From a bacterium (GTDB lineage: Bacteria > Deinococcota > Deinococci > Deinococcales > Deinococcaceae): a DNA stretch of 64,000 bases. The position numbers were made by a program, and so were the translations under genes. This document shows positions 17,523 to 37,450 of this stretch, piece after piece. The stretch is taken from the NCBI GenBank assembly GCA_021810505.1, contig JAJZIR010000013.1:1-64000 (forward strand), written 5' to 3'. Position 1 is the stretch's first letter. Each line of letters begins with the position of its first letter. The notes under the pieces are model-generated. The model saw only the letters and a program-made list of their open reading frames with translations, was not told the DNA's origin and did no database searches.

Positions 17523-18323
17523 GTGCGGGGTGTCCTGGGACTGTTCAGCCTGCCCGAACTCCTCCAGCTATTGGCGGCAGGTAGCCCCCCCGGGGTGCTG
17601 ATCGTCCAGCACCCCGGGCTGGGAGAGGCTCGGATCTACCTATCGTCTGGCCGAATCGTGCGCGCCCTCTTCGCCGCCCAGGAAGACCTGGAAGCCTTGG
17701 TCGCCCTGATGTCCGACCCCAGGGGTAGCTTCGAGTTTCAGCCCGGCAAGGCGCCCACCCGCCCCACCATGGCGGATTCCCTGGACTACACGCTGCTGCA
17801 GGTTATCCGCAGGCTTCCCAGCGACCGCCTGCCCACCCATTCCGGCTTCTCTGCCGAGGACCGACCCAGGAGGCGCGCTGGCGGCGAACCGGGCCCAGGG
17901 GCGGCCGGCTCGGAAGATGCGCTGTTCGCGAGGATCGACGGCTCCCTGAGCGTAGCCGAGCTGGAGCAGCTCTTCCCGGGCCTCTCGGTCGGTGCGGCGC
18001 TCTCGCGTTGGCTGGCCAGCGACCTGATTGAGCTGCAGCCAGCCAGCCAGCTGCTCTTGGCTACCTTGGAGCGAGGCGCTGCCGTACCCGCCGCTGCCCT
18101 GGCGATCGACCTGCGCAGGCTGGCTTCCTGGGAGGCCCACTTGGGGCGCCCGGTGGAGAGGTTGTTGCTGCGCCGCGGGGGGTTGGAGCTGGAATTCAGC
18201 GCCTTGGCCAAGCCCGACTTAGGGCCTAGAGTGCAGCTGGCGACCGAAACCCTGCTCTTCCACCAGCTACGGATCGGGGACCAGGTCGAGGTCAGGCCCA
18301 AGCCGCGCGCCAAGGAGGGGTGA
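17523..18323 (+). CDS. DUF4388 (PATAN-like) domain protein
   Basis: This 266-residue protein starts at GTG immediately after scpB. The first 90 residues (L-F-S-L-P-E-L-L-Q-L-L, then G-x-L-x-V-Q followed by A-R-I-Y-L-S-S-G-R-I-V-R-A) match DUF4388, a domain of bacterial signalling proteins often linked to roadblock/MglA-type GTPase circuits or gliding. A Gly/Pro/Arg-rich linker (about 115-130) leads to a helical second half of unknown function. The stop codon lies in the loop of a 17-bp stem shared with the convergent rplT terminator. Confidence 0.72.
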   Translation: MRGVLGLFSLPELLQLLAAGSPPGVLIVQHPGLGEARIYLSSGRIVRALFAAQEDLEALVALMSDPRGSFEFQPGKAPTRPTMADSLDYTLLQVIRRLPSDRLPTHSGFSAEDRPRRRAGGEPGPGAAGSEDALFARIDGSLSVAELEQLFPGLSVGAALSRWLASDLIELQPASQLLLATLERGAAVPAAALAIDLRRLASWEAHLGRPVERLLLRRGGLELEFSALAKPDLGPRVQLATETLLFHQLRIGDQVEVRPKPRAKEG

Positions 18324-18346
18324 GCCCTCCACCCCTCCTTGGCGCG
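18306..18346. terminator. Bidirectional stem-loop terminator (17-bp perfect stem)
   Basis: Arms 18306-18322 and 18330-18346 are exactly complementary around a 7-nt loop. The stem spans the stop codon of the DUF4388 gene and precedes the 3' end of rplT on the other strand. There is no T-run, so it is an I-shaped hairpin, possibly serving both convergent operons. Confidence 0.7.
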
Positions 18347-36203: not shown

Positions 36204-36803
36204 TCAGCCGTTGTGGTCTTTCCAGTGACGGCCCAGGACGCTCGACGCCAGCATAACCGCTACCCTGGCCCCGTCCCCTGCGCTGACCACGGCGTGACCG
36301 GGTACCACCTTGGCGGCGACACCGCAGGCCCAGACCCTCGGGTGGCTGGTCCTCCCTTCGGCGCCGACTGCTAGGAAAGGACCGTCTTGCTCCAAGGCGA
36401 GCTGGCGGTAGAGCGGGCTGCCCTTGTGCGCAGCCATCACCAGGTGCTCTGCGACCACTTCCCTCCCCGCAGAGAGCTCCAGGGAGAAGCGGTCCCCCAG
36501 GTCCCTGGCTCGCTCGACGGTGGCCTCTAGGTAGAGTGCTCCGTGGGCGCTGGCCTGCCGGCGCATCCCGGCCAGCAGCTCGGCGCCGGTGATCCGCTCG
36601 ATCCCGGGGTAGTTGATGAGCCCCTGAACCTGGGCCAGCCGGGAGCCGCCGGCGTCGATCACCAGAGGGGATAGGCCGGCCCTAGCCAGGAAGAGGGCGC
36701 AGCCCAGGCCGGCAGGGCCAGCGCCGATGACGCAGACCTGGGTTACCTGGGCAGCTAGGCTGCGCGCACCGGAGGGGGGCAGGTTTTCGGGGTCCTGAGG
36801 CAT
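36204..36803 (-). CDS. Minimal FAD protein, thioredoxin-reductase-like without NADPH domain
   Basis: The start is ATG 36803 (TAGCAT ends 7 nt upstream), giving 199 residues. [12 protein letters not shown] (23-34) is the FAD fold and D-x-G-G near 51-53 continues it. The C-terminal block [10 protein letters not shown] and A-G-D-G-A-R-V-A (155-182) is the matching second FAD half. The middle region where TrxR has its NADPH domain and CxxC is missing: about 110 residues shorter than normal, with no redox cysteine pair. It is 22 bp upstream of the racemase on the same strand. Reaction unknown. Confidence 0.7.
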
Positions 36804-36810
36804 GGCCAGC

Positions 36811-36816
36811 ATGCTA
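36811..36816 (-). promoter_or_regulatory. -10 element TAGCAT, leaderless start of FAD protein gene
   Basis: TAGCAT on the minus strand ends 7 nt before ATG 36803. Confidence 0.45.
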
Positions 36817-36897
36817 GCACCCGCGGATGCCCGCTCTGGCCGCTCCCACCCTGGGTCAGCTCCCGGAGCACCGGGCAGGGTGACTGGCAACACTATG

Positions 36898-36922
36898 ATT
36901 ATCAGGAATGATTCCTGATAAT
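36898..36922. promoter_or_regulatory. Perfect 25-bp palindrome over the start of the VIT1-like gene
   Basis: Arms of 12 bp (left arm ATTATCAGGAAT) surround a single central G at 36910. The palindrome covers the ATG at 36908, overlaps the last two bases of TATGAT (36894-36899) and precedes a second ATG at 36929. Such long symmetric AT-rich sites near metal-transport genes are typical of Fur/DtxR/MntR-type regulators, but the sequence does not match a known consensus exactly. Confidence 0.7.
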
Positions 36923-37450
36923 AGGAGCATGACCGTACCTCTGACGGCGGAGCAGCAGGAACAGAAATTCATCTTGCAGATCGTTCAGCCCGCGCTGCTC
37001 GGCCTGATGGATGGCTCGGTATCGACCCTGGCGCCGCTCTTTGCGGCCGCTACCCTGACCGGTGTCCCGCACGATGCCTTCTTGGTCGGTTTGGCTGCCG
37101 CCCTAGGGGCCGGAATCAGCATGGGTTTGGCTGAGGCGCTCTCAGATGACGGCGTGGTCAGCGGGCGCGGCCACCCCTGGCTACGCGGCGCGATCACCGG
37201 GGGAGCTACGGTGCTCGGGGGCATGCTGCACACTCTGCCCTTCTTGATCCCCCGCCTCTCGGTGGCCTTGTCCCTCGCTTACGTGGTGGTGGCGTTCGAG
37301 CTGCTCGGCATCGCCTACATCCGCTACCACTTCATGCACACGCCGCTCGGAAAGACCGTGTTGCAGGTGATCGTCGGCGGAGGGATCGTCTTCGTCACCG
37401 GTATTTTGCTGGGCCGCCTGGGTATCACCCATCCTTTAGCTGGGGGTTGA
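36908..37450 (+). CDS. VIT1/MbfA-like metal transporter domain protein
   Basis: The protein has 180 residues from ATG 36908, 8 nt after TATGAT; an ATG at 36929 with AGGAG one base upstream is less likely. Three to five hydrophobic segments contain [30 protein letters not shown] and [10 protein letters not shown]. These match the C-terminal VIT1 (vacuolar iron transporter-like) part of MbfA. MbfA normally also has an N-terminal ferritin-like domain, which is missing here. It probably moves Fe2+ or Mn2+ out of the cytoplasm. The perfect 25-bp palindrome at its start points to metal-responsive repression. Confidence 0.78.

Follow-up and report, generated by a model that had tools for sequence, protein, structure and literature searches.

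The 25-base palindrome that covers the start of a VIT1/MbfA-type transporter gene is a genuine operator-like site, and its motif recurs on iron genes within the order. Judged from sequence, a repressor that senses iron or peroxide very probably binds there. The window is the whole stretch of DNA analysed, 64,000 nucleotides long, and the features around the site are as follows.

36204..36803, strand -: short FAD/NAD(P) oxidoreductase gene, divergent, outside the palindrome
36894..36899, strand +: TATGAT, proposed -10 box (TANNNT type), from its sequence and the same layout at three relatives' genes
36898..36922, no strand (.): perfect 12-1-12 palindrome ATTATCAGGAATgATTCCTGATAAT, proposed operator, from inverted-repeat analysis and the motif on relatives' iron genes
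36908..36910, strand +: ATG at the palindrome centre, proposed leaderless start, first in-frame ATG of the 180-aa ORF
36908..37450, strand +: stand-alone VIT1-type transporter gene, MbfA membrane domain without the ferritin domain, 180 aa
36929..36931, strand +: second in-frame ATG (MTVPL), alternative start, aligned with the starts of the Meiothermus and Thermaceae orthologues

The palindrome at the gene start

The first-pass annotation had described a perfect 25-bp palindrome overlapping the TATGAT box and the first ATG. Both points were borne out, as the palindrome is exact at 36898-36922, begins inside the box and carries the ATG at its centre. Its arms, ATTATCAGGAAT and ATTCCTGATAAT, are 100% complementary and separated by a 1-nt spacer. 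Order-2 Markov copies of the window predict 0.07 inverted repeats per window when the arms have 12 or more bases and the spacer 0-8, and in 15 simulations no such repeat with a 1-nt spacer arose. Other long palindromes in the window are mostly GC-rich, whereas this one is AT-rich and lies at a gene start. Longer perfect inverted repeats of GC-rich sequence are found at 18306-18346 (17-base arms, 7-nt loop) and at 834-863 (15-base arms, no spacer).

The VIT1/MbfA-type gene and its neighbour

The encoded protein matches positions 162-317 of the 318 positions of the NCBIfam model FeExpMbfA, which represent its C-terminal VIT1 part, with 219.7 bits (6e-65). This is below the model cut-off of 450 bits, which is set for the full-length protein; the match to PF01988 (VIT1) is over the cut-off. 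The N-terminal ferritin-like domain is absent from the window ORF, which has no room for it, and the initial description of the product as the transporter part of MbfA lacking the ferritin domain agrees with this. The ferritin-less form is normal for this subfamily and not unusual, because 67 of the 80 closest relatives are also stand-alone, the other 13 having an N-terminal extension. The protein is 58-75% identical to homologues in many phyla (Mucilaginibacter, Meiothermus, Methylobacterium, Gluconobacter and others), a wide spread which suggests horizontal transfer of the gene. In two Thermus genomes the VIT1-type gene (L089 in G053:C2 and L091 in G034:C1) contains in-frame stop codons and seems to be decaying.

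At the divergent oxidoreductase gene a separate TAGCAT box stands 7 nt ahead of the ATG at 36803 (window 36801-36816, strand -), and this gene likewise looks leaderless. With its own box so near its start, control of this gene by the palindrome is unlikely.

The motif in related genomes

Pattern scans of 111 genomes of the phylum, after which the flanks of the matches were read, gave the consensus TTATTAGGAATNATTCCTAATAA in genomes of the same order, situated over or just upstream of iron and redox genes. Variation among the relatives' sites is symmetric. The motif was found at a VIT1 transporter with a long N-terminal extension and a full VIT1 domain (G015:C39), which has no match to the MbfA model at E 1e-10 and so is not a plain orthologue. 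It also occurs at two P1B metal ATPases (G001:C4 and G019:C7) with SPC and HEGGT motifs identified by eye, which resemble the iron-efflux class of DR1440 (PMC6091924). Further sites were found at ferritin (G011:C189, G007:C1), at sufC in six genomes (G011, G007, G019, G015, G001 and G002), at a peroxiredoxin (G058:C153), at a ZIP/multicopper-oxidase gene (G002:C78) and at rrf2 genes (G015:C58 and G106:C33), with related sites at rrf2 in G007, G011 and G019. In G001:C3, AACAGGAATTATTCCTGTT has a FecCD iron-uptake permease gene 156 bp downstream. From 1.9 to 1.5 kb before this FecCD site lies an ORF resembling a divergent Fur-family protein (L133), without a PF01475 search match.

In the two nearest families (f1 and f5), 14 sites were found at up to 2 mismatches, compared with 4 for a reversed control pattern, and 10 of the 14 precede iron or redox genes. 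The chance of this is about 1e-25 for a fixed set of 40 genes and about 1e-10 if 5% of sites are expected there; these figures are order-of-magnitude only, since gene classes were assigned from translations after the matches were seen and the gene number is assumed. The suf and ferritin sites of the two g7 genomes come from common descent, so this pair does not count as independent evidence. Some matches in AT-richer relatives fell within coding regions (rpoB in G041, sites in G092, secA in G011) and were discounted as chance.

A position weight matrix trained without the window's site scored that site at 27.2, and the next best place in the 64-kb window reached 2.4. The orthologue promoter of Meiothermus granaticius (L028), likewise left out of the training, contains TTATTGCGAATGATTACTATTAG and scored 22.3. 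Weaker sites were scored at the orthologue promoters of a Thermaceae bacterium (10.4) and a Gemmatimonadetes bacterium (14.1). These three are the only related sites among the 80 nearest orthologues across phyla, upstream of which the exact palindrome is generally absent outside the order.

The 2.31-Mb genome of the window itself gave no convincing second site at up to 3 mismatches, so the second copy near metal genes that the first-pass annotation had proposed as a test does not occur there. Two 3-mismatch matches lie inside a polyprenyl-synthase ORF and an ssb ORF, one further match is not at a metal gene, and all three were taken as chance. Several copies per genome on stress or iron genes are thus not seen in this genome, which has one site, while two or more sites each occur in the relatives G011, G007, G019 and G015. 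Lack of conservation in relatives, which had been named as a ground for dropping the operator, is clearly not what was found, as the motif stands on relatives' iron genes. The proposal of a metal-responsive operator is well supported by the comparison with relatives, although not by repetition within its own genome. The single copy is also what could speak for a chance palindrome without function. This explanation is extremely improbable, given the low expected number of such repeats, the fit of the site to a motif learned from iron genes of other genomes and a promoter geometry repeated at four genes, and the conservation in relatives already contradicts it.

Promoter and start codon geometry

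A TANNNT box stands 7-8 nt before a palindrome-centred ATG at four genes, namely the VIT1 genes of the window and of G015 and the ATPase genes of G001 and G019. The distance is 8 nt for TATGAT in the window and 7 nt at the three relatives' genes. A consensus promoter scan found no -35/-10 pair here, and no clear -35 box is seen upstream of TATGAT. All four ORFs of this leaderless type continue in frame as M-I-P. In G015 and G019 the palindrome-centred ATG is, by eye, the sole plausible start codon nearby. The G001 ATPase gene has an alternative GTG with a good AGGAGG downstream of the palindrome-centred ATG, and because of this GTG and of the second ATG at 36929 in the window, a leaderless start is likely but not proven at these two genes. 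As predicted from sequence, the operator centre and the start codon coincide in the leaderless promoters of both VIT1 genes and both ATPase genes. The central base of the coding strand is G, giving the ATG, at all four leaderless genes and C at most suf and ferritin sites, where it avoids a stray ATG.

In Deinococcus-Thermus it is common for genes to lack a leader and to have a TANNNT box 6-7 bp ahead of the start codon (PMC12340547). The present genes would fit this pattern, with a putative -10 box at 8 nt from the proposed start in the window and at 7 nt in the relatives, but differ from the known cases in that the window has a proposed operator palindrome centred on the start codon itself. 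The suf sites follow a -35/-10 pair and fall within the predicted leader, and all the site placements would suit a repressor.

A 25-bp palindrome alone defines no family, and another regulator, for instance of TetR or LysR type, might bind it, or the motif might act as RNA or as a bare promoter element. Only a slight chance is given to these readings. Against them, the targets are specific for iron and oxidative stress, the sites vary as DNA to either side of the start codon and in varied places relative to the transcript, and the sufC and ferritin sites are not at a coding start.

Candidate regulators

It is rather probable that a dimeric metalloregulator, most likely a PerR-like protein of the Fur family, uses the palindrome as its operator within an iron/oxidative-stress regulon of the order. 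Three features favour a PerR-like regulator: the AATNATT core, the kind of genes targeted and where the sites lie. The genome of the window also encodes a candidate. Within the 25 bases, CAGGAATgATTCCTG at 36903-36917 forms a 7-1-7 palindrome with this core, which is kept in most relatives' sites. Boxes of the Fur family classically have such a 7-1-7 frame around AATNATT. The genome of the window encodes two Fur-family proteins, one Zur-like (L084) and one PerR-like (L085, contig C3). L085 contains PF01475, its best PDB match is B. subtilis PerR (1.7e-14), and its best NCBIfam match is the Thermus Mn-dependent PerR model with 134.9 bits, below the equivalog cut-off of 200.

According to the proposed mechanism, the bound repressor would sit over the start codon and transcription start of the leaderless VIT1/MbfA-type exporter gene, as well as over the end of its -10 box, and transcription would be blocked. 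Iron excess, or peroxide oxidising the metal-loaded regulator, would release the repressor and the exporter would be made. We infer protein binding, repression, the iron or peroxide signal and the identity of the regulator with L085 alike. Several findings speak against the PerR-like reading. The genome of the window has a single site, Thermus genomes combine PerR-like genes with almost no matching sites, and no motif site was found before PerR-like or other Fur-type genes that would indicate autoregulation. In G002, which carries the motif at sufC, no Fur-family gene was found in a 640-contig, 91% complete draft, from which the Zur-like gene of its congener G003 is absent as well. The literature search gave nothing usable on a Thermus PerR site or a published regulon collection for Deinococcus-Thermus.

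The main rival, though an unlikely one, is a DtxR/MntR-family protein (own copy G000:C24, L097/L269) that would bind TTAGG/CCTAA half-sites with Fe or Mn. TTAGG...CCTAA is the outer half-site of DtxR/IdeR boxes, and several sites contain it. All 15 genomes tested have a gene of this family, among them G002, where the motif occurs without a Fur match. DR2539, the DtxR homologue of D. radiodurans, acts as a repressor of mntH in the presence of Mn or Fe, for which it requires an inverted repeat (PMC3327659). However, the half-site is variable: it is TCAGG/CCTGA in the window, TTAGG/CCTAA in several relatives, and TTGAG, TTAGT or TTGCG elsewhere, while GAATNATTC is constant across the sites, as in Fur-type boxes. 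The spacing also differs from that of the DtxR box, no motif site was found near any DtxR gene, and DtxR proteins usually repress uptake, whereas the present sites are placed so as to repress export, storage and Fe-S genes. The first-pass annotation had left the regulator unnamed; the choice can be narrowed to the Fur-family PerR-like candidate, with DtxR as the chief competitor.

An Rrf2/IscR-like protein, sensing Fe-S status and regulating its own gene, was also considered. Rrf2 sites are long palindromes, an rrf2 gene is present in every genome tested, and motif sites precede rrf2 in several relatives as well as sufC. The motif is found at rrf2 in several f5 genomes, but in the genome of the window and in Thermaceae it is absent there and another palindrome-like pattern is seen. 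By eye, a separate AATCCC...GGGATT pattern precedes rrf2 in G000, G001, G002, G007, G011, G019 and Meiothermus, and several of these promoters have no strong GAATNATTC site. An Rrf2 protein is improbable as the regulator because this pattern precedes rrf2 even where GAATNATTC is missing, and AATCCC...GGGATT is itself the better candidate for an Rrf2/IscR site. A form related to it is also seen at suf promoters (L129, L130, L164, L182); the rrf2 upstream regions are L225-L240.

Comparison with known systems

The Irr and PerR regulons are among the closest known systems. The genes mbfA and bfr are repressed by Irr and derepressed by iron or H2O2, and sufA is also repressed by Irr (PMC4902296). 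The 5' end of Rhodobacter mbfA maps inside the Irr box (PMC3413700), and the Irr targets of Brucella include a P-type ATPase and rirA of the Rrf2 family (PMC10374146). If a Fur-family repressor binds here, the present case would be like the Irr/ICE system of Bradyrhizobium, Rhodobacter and Brucella, where the site of a Fur-family repressor is found on an MbfA-type exporter and on iron storage. It is unlike it in belonging to a different phylum, in having the start codon inside the box and in its candidate, L085, which scores best with PerR models. The ICE consensus is TTTAGAANNNTTCTAAA, whereas the motif here is TTAGGAATNATTCCTAA, and the closest frame to that consensus, TCAGGAATGATTCCTGA, differs from it by eye at several arm positions.

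The AATNATT core and the 7-1-7 palindrome are shared with the PerR box of Firmicutes, and an iron-efflux P-type ATPase would be a target in both, but the flanks are AGG/CCT here and TTAT/ATAA there. The iron-efflux P-type ATPase PfeT is derepressed by peroxide through PerR (PMC9993123). A VIT1 exporter as target and a leaderless promoter distinguish the present case from the Firmicutes PerR regulon. Taken by analogy, the target set resembles both the PerR and the Irr regulons. DR2539 at D. radiodurans mntH is similar as a metal-dependent repressor with an inverted repeat in a metal-transporter promoter (PMC3327659), and differs in acting on an uptake gene instead of an export gene.

Biological meaning

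The regulation of the iron-efflux ATPase DR1440 was said by its authors to need further study (PMC6091924). The motif shared by iron exporters, ferritin, suf and peroxiredoxin offers a concrete and testable regulon. Bacteria of the Deinococcus-Thermus group are noted for their tolerance of oxidative damage, of which iron control forms a part. At a little short of even confidence, the sites may belong to a hitherto undescribed regulon for iron and peroxide in this Deinococcus-Thermus order, governed by a PerR-like or other repressor through a AGGAATNATTCCT box. At the exporters this box would surround the leaderless start codon, uniting operator, transcription start and initiation codon, an arrangement reached independently at VIT1 and the P1B ATPase. 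A start codon in the operator centre would be a very compact way to repress leaderless genes, and would constrain the evolution of such sites.
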